From contig JACRLY010000040.1 of the NCBI GenBank assembly GCA_016219595.1, positions 1 through 36,218 on the forward strand: 36,218 bases of DNA. Reading direction: 5' to 3'. The notes under the pieces are model-generated. The model worked only from the letters and a program-made list of their open reading frames with translations. It did not search any database and was not told the origin of the DNA. Position numbers and translations under genes: made by a program. The DNA is from Ignavibacteriota bacterium. GTDB taxonomy: Bacteria > Bacteroidota > Ignavibacteria > Kapaibacteriales > UBA2268. Positions 5,414 to 24,875 of the stretch are shown piece after piece (position 1 is the first letter of the stretch; each line of letters begins with the position of its first letter).

Positions 5414-8074
5414 ATGATAGCAGTATTAATATTATTATTTTCTGCACTTCTGACAATTGCATTAATATCATATACTCCTAAAGATGAAATTAATTCTCAG
5501 CTGAATTGGAGTGAGATTTGGGGATTAATAACCGGCAGTAATTCAGTTTATTCCAAAATTGGAATGATTAGCAACTGGCTCGGATTGGCAGGAGCTATAA
5601 TCAGTAATTTCCTATATACAAATACATTGGGATATATAATTATTCTTATACCTGCTATAATAACATTGTGGGGATTGGATTTGTTCAAAACCTATTCAAT
5701 AAGTGAAAGAACAATTAAGCTGACAATAATATATTTTGTGTTCGCATTAATGTTTTCCGCAACATTTGGAACATTTTCACTTTTCGGTTGGTTTCCTGAT
5801 TTGACAAGGCAGTGGTATGGAAGTGTTGGTGAATTTACAGCCAGGTTAACTAATAATCTAATCGGAAATATTGCGGGAATTTCAATTTATATAGCAGCAA
5901 TGATTTTAACAATTGTTATTGCATTCAAAATTGCACTGAAAGATGCTCTGAGAGAAGCAGGAGAATTTTTTAGCCCAGTTAGCTCTAAATTGAAACCTGT
6001 TTTCGGAAAAGTAACAGATACCGTAAGTTCAGAATTAGATAAGTTCGCCTATAAAACAGTTGAACAATCTGAAAAGTTAAATATCGAAAACCTTGTACCT
6101 TTCACAAAAACCGGTCTAATTAACCGGTCAAGTTCCGAAAATTATAATAGTGCAGAAGAATTCATTGATGAACAGGAGGAGTTTGAACCTGAAGAGCCAG
6201 TACGCATAATTAGAAGAAATCTCAGTATCGATGTGAACAGGAATCAGAGTATTGAAAGTGAAGAACCGATATCGAGTGTTAATCCTAAAATATCAGATTT
6301 CACGAAAATAAATACAATTATTAATAATGAAGAAGAAATACTTAATTCTGTTAATAAGAGAGCAGAATCAATTTCAAACCATGTAGAAACAAGTAACAAA
6401 GGGAATAAAATATCAGAGCAATCAGTTAATGATTTACTTGAAAAATTAAAATCGGATTTAGTCGCGAAACATATTCTAATAGATGAAGAAACACCATCGA
6501 ATGAAAAACCTCTTACGATTGAGGTTAATGAAACACCCGCAGAGACTAAAGTAGAAACCAATTTCTTCAATCCATTAAGCACATCAATTCATGATGAAAA
6601 AATAAAGTATAAAGTGCCTGCACTTGATTTTCTTGAAGATGAAGAAACGGTAACAAAAGTAAACGAGGAAGAATTAAAAATAAATGCAAAGATATTGCAG
6701 GAAAAATTAGAAACATTTAAAATAATAATACAAAATTTAACTGTTACACCCGGTCCTGTGGTAACAATGTATGAATTTGTACCTGCACCCGGAATAAAAA
6801 TAAGCAAAATAGAAAGCTATGCAGATGATATTGCAATGGCATTGAAAGCAAGAGGAATAAGAGTACTTGCACCTATTCCCGGCAAAGGCACGGTAGGCAT
6901 AGAAATACCAAATCATAAACCGACACTTGTCAGACTCGGTAATGTAATAAAATCAAATAAGTACCAGCAAAGTGATTATAAACTCCCGATTGCTTTAGGT
7001 AAAACAATCTCCGGTGAAGTTTATATGACAGATTTGACGAGAATGCCTCACTTATTAATAGCTGGCTCTACAGGTTCAGGAAAAAGTGTAGGTATTAATT
7101 CAATTATAACATCATTAATATACAAACTGCATCCAAAGGATTTGAAGTTTGTCATTATTGACCCAAAGAAAGTAGAATTAAGACAATATTCTGCTTTAAA
7201 AAATCATTTTCTTGCGATATCACCCGATATTAATGAACCAATTATTACAAGTCCTGAAGACTCTGTAATAGCTCTAAAAGCGATATGTGCCGAGATGGAT
7301 TTAAGATATGATATACTTGCAGAAGTAGGACAAAGAAATATTTTTGAATATAACAGGAAAGTCGCTGAAGGTAAAATAAAAGCAGAAGATGGAAAAGTAT
7401 ACCGTGAAATGCCTTTCATTGTATTAATAATAGATGAATTGGCAGATTTGATGTTGACTTCAGCCAAAGAAGTCGAATCACCTATAATAAGATTGGCTCA
7501 GCTTGCAAGGGCTGTAGGCATTCATCTCGTATTGGCAACTCAGAGACCATCTGTAGATGTTATAACAGGTATTATTAAAGCAAATTTCCCTGCCAGGATA
7601 TCTTATCTCGTTGCATCCAGAGTAGATTCACGAACTATATTGGATGATGGTGGAGCTGAGCAATTACTCGGGAACGGAGATATGCTTTTCTTACCAAGTG
7701 GTTCCCCGAAACCAATAAGAATTCAAAATGCTTTCATTAGTACTGAAGAGGTTGAAAAAATCTGTGAATCATTATCAAAACAGAAAGGATACTCACAACC
7801 ATATATGCTTCCGAGTTTGGTTGACAAGTGCATTCGTTCAGATAAGCTCACAAGGGAGGATTGCGACCCACTATTCGAAGAGGCAGCCCGCTTAGTCATA
7901 CGTCATCAGCAAGGTTCAATCTCGATGCTTCAAAGAAGACTAAAAATAGGTTTTGCCCGAGCCGGAAAAATCATAGATGAATTGGAAATAATGGGAGTAG
8001 TTGGTCCATCGGACGGAAGCAAAGCCCGCTCAGTTATTATGGACAGTGAAAGCGAATTGGAAGCTGTGCTGTAA
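5414..8074 (+). CDS. ftsK: FtsK/SpoIIIE-family DNA translocase
   Basis: N-terminal TM helices, long linker, Walker A (LLIAGSTGSGKSVGINSII), Walker B (FIVLIIDELADLM), HLVLATQRPSVDVITGIIKANFPARI and a C-terminal winged-helix gamma domain. The true start may lie at 5328 (see findings). Confidence 0.95.
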   Translation: MIAVLILLFSALLTIALISYTPKDEINSQLNWSEIWGLITGSNSVYSKIGMISNWLGLAGAIISNFLYTNTLGYIIILIPAIITLWGLDLFKTYSISERTIKLTIIYFVFALMFSATFGTFSLFGWFPDLTRQWYGSVGEFTARLTNNLIGNIAGISIYIAAMILTIVIAFKIALKDALREAGEFFSPVSSKLKPVFGKVTDTVSSELDKFAYKTVEQSEKLNIENLVPFTKTGLINRSSSENYNSAEEFIDEQEEFEPEEPVRIIRRNLSIDVNRNQSIESEEPISSVNPKISDFTKINTIINNEEEILNSVNKRAESISNHVETSNKGNKISEQSVNDLLEKLKSDLVAKHILIDEETPSNEKPLTIEVNETPAETKVETNFFNPLSTSIHDEKIKYKVPALDFLEDEETVTKVNEEELKINAKILQEKLETFKIIIQNLTVTPGPVVTMYEFVPAPGIKISKIESYADDIAMALKARGIRVLAPIPGKGTVGIEIPNHKPTLVRLGNVIKSNKYQQSDYKLPIALGKTISGEVYMTDLTRMPHLLIAGSTGSGKSVGINSIITSLIYKLHPKDLKFVIIDPKKVELRQYSALKNHFLAISPDINEPIITSPEDSVIALKAICAEMDLRYDILAEVGQRNIFEYNRKVAEGKIKAEDGKVYREMPFIVLIIDELADLMLTSAKEVESPIIRLAQLARAVGIHLVLATQRPSVDVITGIIKANFPARISYLVASRVDSRTILDDGGAEQLLGNGDMLFLPSGSPKPIRIQNAFISTEEVEKICESLSKQKGYSQPYMLPSLVDKCIRSDKLTREDCDPLFEEAARLVIRHQQGSISMLQRRLKIGFARAGKIIDELEIMGVVGPSDGSKARSVIMDSESELEAVL

Positions 8075-8401: not shown

Positions 8402-8429
8402 CCCCCGAACCCCCTTTGAAAAAGGGGGC
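8402..8429. repeat. GC-rich palindromic element CCCCCGAACCCCCTTTGAAAAAGGGGGC
   Basis: 8-bp stem CCCCCTTT/AAAGGGGG with GAA loop; the same 28-mer recurs at 19651-19678 inside a CDS. Confidence 0.85.
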
Positions 8430-8666: not shown

Positions 8667-8672
8667 CAGCTA

Positions 8673-8706
8673 CCCTAAATCCTTCCTCAAGGAAGGGAAA
8701 TTTGGG
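8673..8706. repeat. Imperfect palindrome CCCTAAATCCTTCC-TCAA-GGAAGGGAAATTTGGG
   Basis: Core CCTTCC/GGAAGG with TCAA loop and partly complementary flanks. Confidence 0.7.
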
Positions 8707-8754
8707 TTCACGCAAAGGATGAAAGTTGTCTGAACGGTGATTCGTGACTACTTT

Positions 8755-9238: not shown

Positions 9239-10963
9239 ATGCTCAAATCGCTTTTAATTAAAAATTTTGCCCTGATAGATTCCCTTGAGATTGATTTTTC
9301 AGAGGGATTGAATATTATTACAGGTGAAACCGGAGCCGGCAAATCAGTCATTGTCGAAGCCCTTTTAATGGCTTTGGGTGAGCGAGCATCGGTTGATTTA
9401 ATTCGTGAAGGAGAAAAAAAAGCAATTATTGAAGCAATTTTCAATTTGCAATATAAATCAATCATTAATACTATATTAACTGAAAACGAAATTGATATTA
9501 ATAATGATATAATAATCCGCAGAGAAATATCAGATAAATCAAGTTCAAGATGTTTTATTAATGATTCACCTGTTAATTTAAATGTACTGAAAAAAATCGG
9601 CGACCTGCTTGTCGATTTTCATGGGCAGCATGACCATCAGTTACTGCTCAACAGGGAATCACATATTACACTTTTAGATTCATTAGCTAATATAGAAAAT
9701 TTGAAGAGTGAATATTTTTCTATTTATTCTTCACTAATTGAAAAAATTCGTAAAATTACTGAATTGAAAAAAAATGAATTACAGTTAAAATCGAAAACGG
9801 ATGCTTTAAAATTTGAATTAAATGAGATTGAACGTGTCAATCCATTGCCGGATGAAGAAAACTTACTTGAACAGGAATTGAATCTAATTCAAAATTCCGA
9901 AATATTGCATAACCTGGCAAATGAATTGAATATGATTTTATCAGAAGATGAAAATTCTGCATATTCACAGTTAAATAAATCTGAAAAAATACTGCAGAAA
10001 CTGGTAAAAATCGATTCAAGATACAAGGAATATTATAATGAAATAATAAAAGCTTCAGTCAGCATTACTGAAATAATTAAGTTCTCGAATAATTATTTAT
10101 CCCAAATTCAATTTGACCAGGAAAGAATAGAATCTATCAGGGAAAGATTACTTATTCTTACGGGATTGAGAAAAAAATATGGTAATTATAACGCTATATT
10201 TGAAAAGAAATCATTTATAGAATCCGAATTAAATCATATCATCAATTTCGATGAAGAAATTATTTCTCTTGACAAAGAAATCAGTGATCTTAAAAATAAA
10301 GCAGGAGAAAAAGCATTTCAGATATCGGAAAAAAGAAAAAACATTTCAATCAAACTGGACAAATCTGTTGTATTAACGTTGAAAAATCTTGGAATTGAAA
10401 ACTCCTTTTTCAAAACAGTAATAACCCAGAATGAAATAAATAAATCAACATTAATGCAATCCGGTAATCATATACATGTTAATTATGAAGGAAAATCTTA
10501 TTCAACTTCACCTGATGGGATAGACGATGTGGAATTCTTCATATCTACAAACAAGGGTGAAACCCCAAAACCATTAACTAATGTTGCATCCGGAGGTGAA
10601 ATCTCAAGGGTGATGCTTGCACTGAAGAGTATTCTTGCTGAAAGCGATAATCTACCAATACTGATTTTCGATGAAATTGACATTGGAATAAGCGGTAGAA
10701 TTGCTCAGAAAGTCGGAATTACAATGAAAGAATTATCAAAGAAACATCAAATTATATCAATAACACATCTGCCTCAAATAGCTGCCCTTGGTGATAGTAA
10801 TATCAGAGTTGAGAAAATAACAGTACAAGGCAGAACCTTAATAAAAAGCAATATAATCTCAAATAAAGAAAAAGTAAAAGAAATTGCCCGGCTAATAAGT
10901 GGAGAAACAATAACTGAAACATCGCTTAAAACAGCAACTGAGCTTATTAATTTTGAAAATTAA
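9239..10963 (+). CDS. recN: DNA repair protein RecN
   Basis: MLKSLLIKNFALIDSLEIDFSEGLNIITGETGAGKSVIVEAL, long coiled coil, FDEIDIGISGRIAQKVG, ITHLPQIAALGD. Confidence 0.95.
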   Translation: MLKSLLIKNFALIDSLEIDFSEGLNIITGETGAGKSVIVEALLMALGERASVDLIREGEKKAIIEAIFNLQYKSIINTILTENEIDINNDIIIRREISDKSSSRCFINDSPVNLNVLKKIGDLLVDFHGQHDHQLLLNRESHITLLDSLANIENLKSEYFSIYSSLIEKIRKITELKKNELQLKSKTDALKFELNEIERVNPLPDEENLLEQELNLIQNSEILHNLANELNMILSEDENSAYSQLNKSEKILQKLVKIDSRYKEYYNEIIKASVSITEIIKFSNNYLSQIQFDQERIESIRERLLILTGLRKKYGNYNAIFEKKSFIESELNHIINFDEEIISLDKEISDLKNKAGEKAFQISEKRKNISIKLDKSVVLTLKNLGIENSFFKTVITQNEINKSTLMQSGNHIHVNYEGKSYSTSPDGIDDVEFFISTNKGETPKPLTNVASGGEISRVMLALKSILAESDNLPILIFDEIDIGISGRIAQKVGITMKELSKKHQIISITHLPQIAALGDSNIRVEKITVQGRTLIKSNIISNKEKVKEIARLISGETITETSLKTATELINFEN

Positions 10964-18705: not shown

Positions 18706-20018
18706 TTAAGCAACATTTTCAGGTTTTATAAGTGTAATCACAGTAATTTCAGGTTTCATTCCTATTCTGATTGGTGGTCCTGCTGTCCCACAGCCACGGT
18801 TTACATATAAATACTGGTCTTTGTTTTTATAGAGTCCAGCATAATATTTATATACATAGCGAACAGGAGAAAATTCCATTCCGTCAATTTTACAACTGAA
18901 TTGTTCTTTATCCCAATTATTCGGGTCGTGGCATAATAAAATGGTTGGGTCAATATCATTCAACCCGTTTAGCGTTTTATCGAAATCAGCAAATTTATCC
19001 CCCCAGCTTGTGTTGTCGGTAGCGGCAAGCTGTAATTTGCAGCCGTTAATAGTTAGTTTCCTATTCTCATTTATAATTAAATCAATACCGGTATGCCTGA
19101 TTATATTGATTAATTTATTATGATTATTATCAGTCATGTAATGGTCATGATTCCCCAAACAAGCATATACCCCAAATTGTGCATTTAAAGTTTTCAAACC
19201 CTCAACTGCAAGTACCATTTCATCGGGATGATTGTTCACGAAATCACCTGTAACAAATATTAAATCGGGTTTAACCGCATTTGCAAGGATACATGCTTTC
19301 ATAAAAGTTCGTTTGTTCAGAAATGAACCTGCATGTATATCAGAAATTTGAACAATTTTCAATCCATTTAATCCCGGGGGTAATTTTGTTAAGGGAATCT
19401 GAATAGGATATATGTGAAAATCATAAGTATTTCTGAGCATATTATCCCCGACAATCAGGAATGGCACTCCAGCCAATGACCAGGCTATGTTTCCTGCAAT
19501 TCTCCTACGTGATGCTGATTGAAGTTCTTGGTGTGAGTCCTCAGAAAACCCCCGAACACCCTTTGATAAAGCTGATTTCTTTTCTGAGGCATCAGAAACC
19601 CCCCGAACACCCTTTGATAATGGGGGCACATCAAGTGTATCATCTGAAAACCCCCGAACCCCCTTTGAAAAAGGGGGCTTTTTAAATACTCTTAACTTTA
19701 TAAACTTTACAAAATTTATACATAATTTGATGATATCTTTTATGAGAAGAATTGGAAATATTCCAAGTTTAGGTAAATACCAAAAAAAGACAGCATACAT
19801 GATAATTTTATTAGACAATGTTTGTGCTTCATCTCGATTTCTTGTCAAAAAGGAAATTATAGTAATCAATAGCATAATGATGGAAATATAAATTGGCAGC
19901 CATTTGATGAATTTTTTATACTTCCTTTTTTTAAAAAAATTAGAAAGACTTATAGAAAAATAAAAGTCAATGATAGTTAACGATACAATAATAATTAAAA
20001 CTATTAAAAAGAAACCAT
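18706..20018 (-). CDS. Membrane-anchored calcineurin-like metallophosphoesterase; annotated ORF 18706..19875, with a coding-like N-terminal extension up to 20018 if one base is restored
   Basis: LKIVQISDIHAGSF, PDLIFVTGDFVNN, ACLGNHDHY, ILLCHDPN, YVNRGCGTAGPPIRIGMKPEITVITL; N-terminal TM segments. Confidence 0.85.
19541..19680 (-). repeat. Three in-frame 51-bp tandem units containing the GC palindrome
   Basis: Copies begin at 19541, 19592 and 19643. On the minus strand they encode PPFSKGVRGFSDDTLDV / PPLSKGVRGVSDASEKK / SALSKGVRGFSEDSHQE. Confidence 0.9.
19688..19715 (-). repeat. ~9-nt period array related to 8355-8389
   Basis: Minus strand: TTTTGTAAA GTTTATAAA GTTAAGAGT. Confidence 0.65.
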
Positions 20019-20146
20019 GTATTATTATTCTCTAATTCTAGTAATATTTCAAGTTTAAAATAAAGTAACAAAGTAAAAAAAAACAAAAAAATTATTATTT
20101 TAATAAAAAAAACTTTTTTGTGGAAAATTACATTACAACTATAACA

Positions 20147-24095: not shown

Positions 24096-24875
24096 TTAAA
24101 TCATGCCTATGAAAGCACACATTCTGCCTGATTTATCCTTATCCCTTCTATATGAATGATAATCCTCATCAATTATTGTACATATTTCCGAGACTTCAAT
24201 GTTTTCAGCTTTTATTCCTTCCGATAATAATTGATTTTTAATTTGTTTCTTATTATCAAATAAGTATTTTCCACCTGATTCCCCTTTTACTGATGCAGAA
24301 CTTAATGGTACTACACTCCCGGAATCAATGAATAATTTTGCGACATCATATCCAACTTCATAACTTTTACCAGATGCACAAGGACTAATCCATACCTGTA
24401 AATCTTTTGGATTAGAACCATTTTTTTTCAACATTTCGATACTCTTTCCTGCAATATTTTGACTTGAACCTTTCCAACCTGAATGAATTGCTCCAATCAT
24501 TCCTTTTACTGGGTCATATATCAATACTCCAGCACAATCGGCAAGTGAAACACACAGAACTATTCCTTTTTCAAAGCAAATCATTCCGTCTCTCACTTCC
24601 CTTTCCTGTTCTATTCCTTCAATAGAATCAGAATTAACGATTTCGATTTGAACTCCATGAACCTGCTTTTGATAAATTAATTTTTTTATTGAAGGGTATT
24701 CTTTTTTCAGATATTCAGCAAAATACTTCCTTCCCTTACTCGCCACTTCTTCACCGAAAACACCTGCAGGTGAAATTGAAAAACCATAAGGTGAAAAGTT
24801 GATAATATTTCTTTTTGTTATACCTGAAATAATTTTAGTCTGATTGAATATATTTGCAAAGTTTATTTCAAACAT
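24096..24875 (-). CDS. pgeF: Peptidoglycan editing factor / YfiH (DUF152) family
   Basis: KQVHGVQIEIVNSD, VLCVSLADCAGVLIYDPVKGMIGAIHSGWKGSSQNIAGKSIEML, SPCASGKSYEVGYDV. Confidence 0.92.
   Translation of the reverse strand: MFEINFANIFNQTKIISGITKRNIINFSPYGFSISPAGVFGEEVASKGRKYFAEYLKKEYPSIKKLIYQKQVHGVQIEIVNSDSIEGIEQEREVRDGMICFEKGIVLCVSLADCAGVLIYDPVKGMIGAIHSGWKGSSQNIAGKSIEMLKKNGSNPKDLQVWISPCASGKSYEVGYDVAKLFIDSGSVVPLSSASVKGESGGKYLFDNKKQIKNQLLSEGIKAENIEVSEICTIIDEDYHSYRRDKDKSGRMCAFIGMI

Follow-up and report, generated by a model that had tools for sequence, protein, structure and literature searches.

A dispersed, REP/REPIN-like palindrome within a three-unit in-frame repeat of a metallophosphoesterase gene in an Ignavibacteriota bacterium

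A metallophosphoesterase gene in the window (the whole stretch of DNA that was analysed, 36,218 nt) contains three in-frame units of a palindrome-bearing repeat, and the palindrome belongs to a family that is dispersed through this genome, its congeners and genomes named for several other phyla. The explanation that we regard as probable takes the palindrome for a short mobile repeat of a non-autonomous, REP/REPIN-like type, of which a single copy would have been inserted into a linker of the protein and then triplicated in tandem.

The host ORF (389 aa, 18706-19875, minus strand), delineated from the open frame, the Pfam Metallophos match and an alignment with congeners, encodes a calcineurin-like phosphoesterase with the Metallophos domain at residues 172-324 and a membrane-anchored N-terminus with predicted helices at residues 20-63 and 112-149; homologues are present in 58 of 60 relatives. 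The open frame extends further 5′ to an ATA codon (20020-20022) that aligns with the ATG start of the congeners. The next in-frame ATG lies 49 codons downstream, whereby the first membrane segment is cut. The three units of 51 nt (17 aa) occupy, when taken in phase with the codons, 19525-19677 on the minus strand (residues 67-117), and encode PPFSKGVRGFSDDTLDV, PPLSKGVRGVSDASEKK and SALSKGVRGFSEDSHQE. The 28-mer CCCCCGAACCCCCTTTGAAAAAGGGGGC is found exactly in unit C (19651-19678, plus strand), where the hairpin is intact and the tag described below stands at the left end, and again at 8402-8429 (plus strand) between ORFs that end at 8074 and start at 9239. Unit B (19600-19627, plus strand) is a remnant with three mismatches and a degraded hairpin, and unit A (19549-19576, plus strand) is a remnant that has lost the hairpin and kept the SKGVRG peptide. 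No match to the 28-mer arose in 100 dinucleotide shuffles of the sequence. On RNA folding unit C reaches -12.3 kcal/mol, and units A and B are no more stable than shuffled sequences. A preliminary description of this DNA had reported three in-frame units at an exact 51-nt spacing, the identity of the unit C 28-mer with that at 8402-8429, and the loss of a perfect hairpin from units A and B with retention of SKGVRG; all three points are borne out, by the repeat family and codon phase, by exact matching at both sites, and by folding and the encoded peptides, respectively. It had also placed the repeat between the N-terminal membrane region and the catalytic domain, which holds as to the position ahead of the catalytic domain and is here refined, in that the units lie inside the membrane-anchored part, between its two predicted helices. 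In this region pLDDT falls below 50 at residues 69-84 and 86-111 (AlphaFold2, 23 homologues), and the linker that carries the repeat is predicted to be disordered. The neighbourhood of the intergenic copy is itself dense in short repeats and includes, at 8669-8708 of the window, another palindrome, CCTTCCTCAAGGAAGG, that looks like a second dispersed family.

Alignment of flanks defines a half-element of ~35 nt, composed of a AAATCCCCC tag, 2-6 nt and the hairpin CCCCCTTT-N3-AAAGGGGG, which the tag flanks on one side. This one-sided tag accompanies 54/58 copies in the genus (control flanks 2/116), 10/10 copies in other phyla (2/20) and, among the matches listed, 85/93 viral copies (15/186). 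Close pairs in the fetched loci comprise 19 with the tags facing outward, 3 with the tags inward and 10 direct (outward versus inward, p=0.0009). In the genomes G433 and G442, all 42 close pairs among those listed are inverted and join a 'T-type' half, with a spacer ending in T (TCAGT, TCAAT, TAAAT), to a 'C-type' half, with a spacer ending in C or similar (CGAAC, CTGC, CTAAC); again among the pairs listed, 17 of 23 in G433 are set 22 nt apart, and most of those in G442 stand 15 or 26 nt apart. Both exact copies in the window are of the C-type (GAA). Singles predominate in the window's own genus, where the few close pairs are direct (3 '>>', 1 '<<') and none is inverted. By analogy with the proposal made for REPINs (PMC3116915), we infer that the doublet may be the unit that spreads. 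Compared with the MITE hallmarks of terminal inverted repeats and a target site duplication, the doublet at one viral locus, L393, reads CAAATCCCCC...GGGGGATTTG, with no target duplication readable there; between congeners, divergence at the insertion sites is too high for target duplications or the exact ends to be read. The genus also contains a sibling palindrome family, CCCCTGAATCCCCTCCTTAATTAAGGAGGGG.

The family is not confined to the two exact loci of the window. With up to 3 mismatches the palindrome core occurs at ~22 sites in this genome, as counted from pattern searches and stretches, with none for the reversed control, and ~75, ~20 and ~155 core matches are found in the congeners G001 (Bacteroidetes bacterium WY4.bin46), G002 and G003 (Ignavibacteria bacterium RIFOXYC2_FULL_35_21), with small control counts. 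The strict core is present in 18 of the 396 genomes sampled from the phylum, at 1 to 67 copies each (control 0 throughout). A 24-base pattern of tag and hairpin also matches records named Binatia, Patescibacteria, Poribacteria and Omnitrophota; these hold 90, 1, 37 and 13 cores, respectively, and the unclassified bacterium GMC4.concoct.297 holds 149, with a control of 0, and the tagged form is found in 16/59 genomes of the phylum of the Binatia genome at up to 144 copies, although most genomes compared are metagenome bins and mis-binned contigs could account for some of the cross-phylum copies. Mis-binning is unlikely as a general account, because the copies number in the tens per genome. Viral contigs contribute at least 120 stretches with matches to the palindrome pattern, and weaker matches occur on Acinetobacter, Microcystis and Campylobacter plasmids. 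In this genome, downstream of position 1520 of locus L006 and at similar intergenic loci, several copies adjoin a longer non-coding repeat that these loci have in common (...actggattcagcccgacat...caaagaacg...gcaaagata...) and that is also present in G002.

Spread of the palindrome would presumably be due to a transposase or another single-strand-processing enzyme acting in trans. A specific form of this idea, in which the carriers' own RAYT (TnpA-REP, a Y1/HuH transposase) has the palindrome as its cognate REP and moves it, finds a counterpart in the REP/REPIN-like anatomy of a 5′ tag and hairpin, inverted doublets and double-foot forms, and 13/14 carriers counted do have Y1_Tnp genes. Non-carriers, however, have such genes at a similar frequency (12/16, p=0.34), no Y1 match is found in the carriers G378 and G452, and the Y1_Tnp loci inspected are never bracketed by the palindrome, several having other palindromes of their own. 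A search for a RAYT or other linked enzyme at the Y1_Tnp loci inspected found none, and, although mobilisation in trans may still occur, we consider movement by a RAYT unlikely, at perhaps one chance among several. In this genome a single Y1 transposase gene was found (L055, ~1350-1930), and the palindrome on either side of it is a different one (CCACTATTTAAAAATAGTGG, CCACTACTTTTAAGTAGTGG), in a REPtron-like arrangement.

Comparison of orthologues bears on how the gene came to hold three copies. The congeners G002 and G003 have one palindrome each at the same place (PPFSKGISGF... and PPLSKGVRGIS...), 21/21 orthologues of other genera with a readable linker have none, their linker lengths differing widely, and three units occur only in this genome among the orthologues compared. 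The segment is thus not a constant part of the protein, and one copy in congeners with none in other genera argues for a single insertion at the level of the genus and a triplication in this lineage. Between units, the 24-nt spacers agree at 11, 14 and 16 of 24 positions (p=0.03, 0.0007 and <1e-4 against shuffles), a likeness beyond that of shuffles and one that therefore points to tandem duplication of the 51-nt unit rather than to three insertions; units A and B have the TTA and GGT codons in common and so probably separated after C. Three independent insertions could be imagined, as other palindrome types can occupy one common insertion site, but the exact 51-nt spacing and the homologous spacers make this very improbable. 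The sequence comparison instead favours one ancestral insertion followed by tandem duplication. In the ancestor of the genus, one copy would have inserted into the linker that precedes the last membrane helix; in this lineage, tandem duplication of the 51-nt unit (27 nt of palindrome and 24 nt of neighbouring sequence), probably through slippage or unequal recombination, would have raised the number to three, and units A and B would afterwards have lost the hairpin with the frame kept.

Copies of the palindrome are mostly intergenic. Of the ~22 sites known in this genome, only 3 fall within convincing long ORFs, namely the metallophosphoesterase, a 348-aa ORF without a Pfam match and a 773-aa TPR-CHAT protein, and with ~87% of the window coding the depletion from genes is strong (p about 2e-13, computed with 85%). 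Several copies are nonetheless in frame in real enzymes, and unrelated proteins make use of the DNA in different frames and from either strand. A UvrD-like helicase of G003 holds inserts of 22 and 9 aa that are absent in G002; a molybdenum hydroxylase of G003, 90% identical to that of G002, has a palindrome insert at a site filled in G002 by a sibling palindrome. A YfiH/PgeF-like Cu-oxidase_4 gene holds two recognisable copies in congeners, comparison with which identifies a decayed trace of insertion in the window (24270-24320, minus strand, GSVVPLSSASVKGESGG). Copies also lie within a PdxB-like dehydrogenase, a glycosyltransferase and a HemC/HemD-type fusion, and a 1093-aa oxidoreductase has four copies in frame, of which two form a 36-nt tandem. 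One loop encoded by the terminase-like genes of phages is unoccupied in some relatives; in various other phages this palindrome, a GTAG-type palindrome or others sit there, and this tolerant-loop pattern is the strongest sign that the peptides are passengers. The terminase loop is a hot spot with different in-frame palindrome families in different phages (L393, L397, L473, L476, L479, L481, L485). A 2002-aa phage ORF (L284, 6566-12571) carries several peptides of palindrome-like type that belong to other families (PHPDPLPVRGEG, PSPPAPLPMGEGG).

These distributions weigh on two further readings. That the units form a functional peptide module under protein selection, the palindromic DNA being secondary, would fit the presence of SKGVRG in all three units with synonymous changes only and the retention of SKG in congeners; yet the same DNA is mostly intergenic, is read in other frames and from both strands in unrelated proteins, and lies here in a linker that is predicted to be disordered and varies greatly among orthologues, so that we give this reading very little weight. 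Independently arisen transcription terminators or structured RNA signals, with no spreading family, are the least credible reading, since a stable hairpin and a mostly intergenic position are set against the lack of a T-run after the hairpin, conservation far beyond the needs of pairing and an identical tag across phyla, and an Rfam search of the window gave no match above the gathering score.

The REP/REPIN-like explanation would accommodate these observations as follows. The half-element, an A-rich AAATCCCCC tag with 2-6 nt and a C5T3-N3-A3G5 hairpin, would combine as T-type and C-type halves into inverted doublets in some genomes, and most insertions into genes would be lost. An in-frame insertion into a tolerant loop or linker would survive as a presumably neutral passenger peptide of ~10-35 aa, for which a stop-free frame is required; the consensus 28-mer is open in five of six reading frames. 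Long decay of the host gene was considered as the reason for tolerance and rejected on the low dN/dS of the catalytic part (0.043 between this genome and G002, 0.10 between this genome and G003, and 0.054 between G002 and G003, with dS saturated). The same gene (18706-19875, minus strand) has an in-frame deletion of 54 nt at 18898-18921 of the window, by which 18 codons including GHTH are missing; this metal-binding motif is nearly invariant in 22 other homologues, and the AlphaFold2 model is also poor at residues 324-340, the site of the deletion. As the dN/dS is low, the GHTH loss would be recent or an assembly fault.

On a broader scale, we entertain, at somewhat less than even probability, that the palindrome represents a third large REP-like superfamily beside GTAG and CGTC, with a C-tract tag, two-type doublets and a range of several phyla and phages, mobilised by a not-yet-recognised enzyme and acting as a general source of in-frame loop insertions. 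On the mobile-repeat explanation, palindromes would have to be counted generally as a source of in-frame loop insertions, many puzzling 'PPFSKGVRG / PLNPPLKKGE' insertions in the predicted proteins of environmental genomes would be accounted for, and a defined element with two half types and near-fixed spacing would be at hand for tracing the mobilising enzyme. For annotators and structure predictors, such peptides are probably passengers.

A literature search with the exact sequence and the peptides returned no paper and a search with the tag returned unrelated papers only; subscription papers were mostly outside the search, and a prior description is possible. The small dispersed repeats of cyanobacteria are a comparable case, as very small mobile repeats. 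The closest anatomy is that of GTAG REPs and REPINs, in which a 5′ tag and hairpin form inverted doublets, including heterodimers, and tandem clusters that are mostly intergenic with occasional in-frame insertion into genes (PMC3733652, PMC3116915). Anatomy, intergenic bias and in-frame insertions are common to both, whereas here 2-6 nt separate the hairpin from a AAATCCCCC tag, and the 28-mer contains no GTAG. The inverted doublets of near-fixed spacing in G433 and G442 resemble REPINs, in contrast to the direct pairs alone of the own-genus sample, and, unlike a REPtron, no Y1_Tnp locus inspected is flanked by copies of the palindrome. 'Double foot' REPs of TnpA-REP subclass 2.4 have GT[AG]G feet and in-frame insertions and are found in Bacteroidetes, Cyanobacteria and scattered phyla (PMC6006769); some copies here are likewise tagged at both ends (L473), but no TnpA-REP is linked. 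CGTC REPs, which include Rickettsia RPE-4 and RPE-6, insert in frame into genes with no reported association with a transposase and occur in Bacteroidetes and Chlorobi among others (PMC3733652); the in-frame insertion is shared, whereas the palindrome has no terminal CGTC and differs in stem and loop sequence. Palindromic amphipathic coding repeats, which PMC2996958 describes as horizontally distributed intragenic tandem repeats in proteins, likewise have coding palindrome copies, in contrast to the mainly intergenic family here with its occasional insertions. The likeness to Rickettsia palindromic elements drawn in the preliminary description stands for behaviour, i.e. tolerated in-frame insertion, and not for identity. 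RPE-1-type elements are Rickettsia-specific palindromes of 105-146 bp fused in frame within protein genes and apparently tolerated (PMC2229807), and in-frame positions in genes with absence from orthologues are also seen here, but the half-element is ~35 nt and its hosts are Ignavibacteria/Bacteroidota and other phyla; as tag and size differ, the palindrome is not an RPE. It is REP/REPIN- and RPE-like in its working and distinct from the GTAG and CGTC classes and from RPE, being set apart by tag, size and host.
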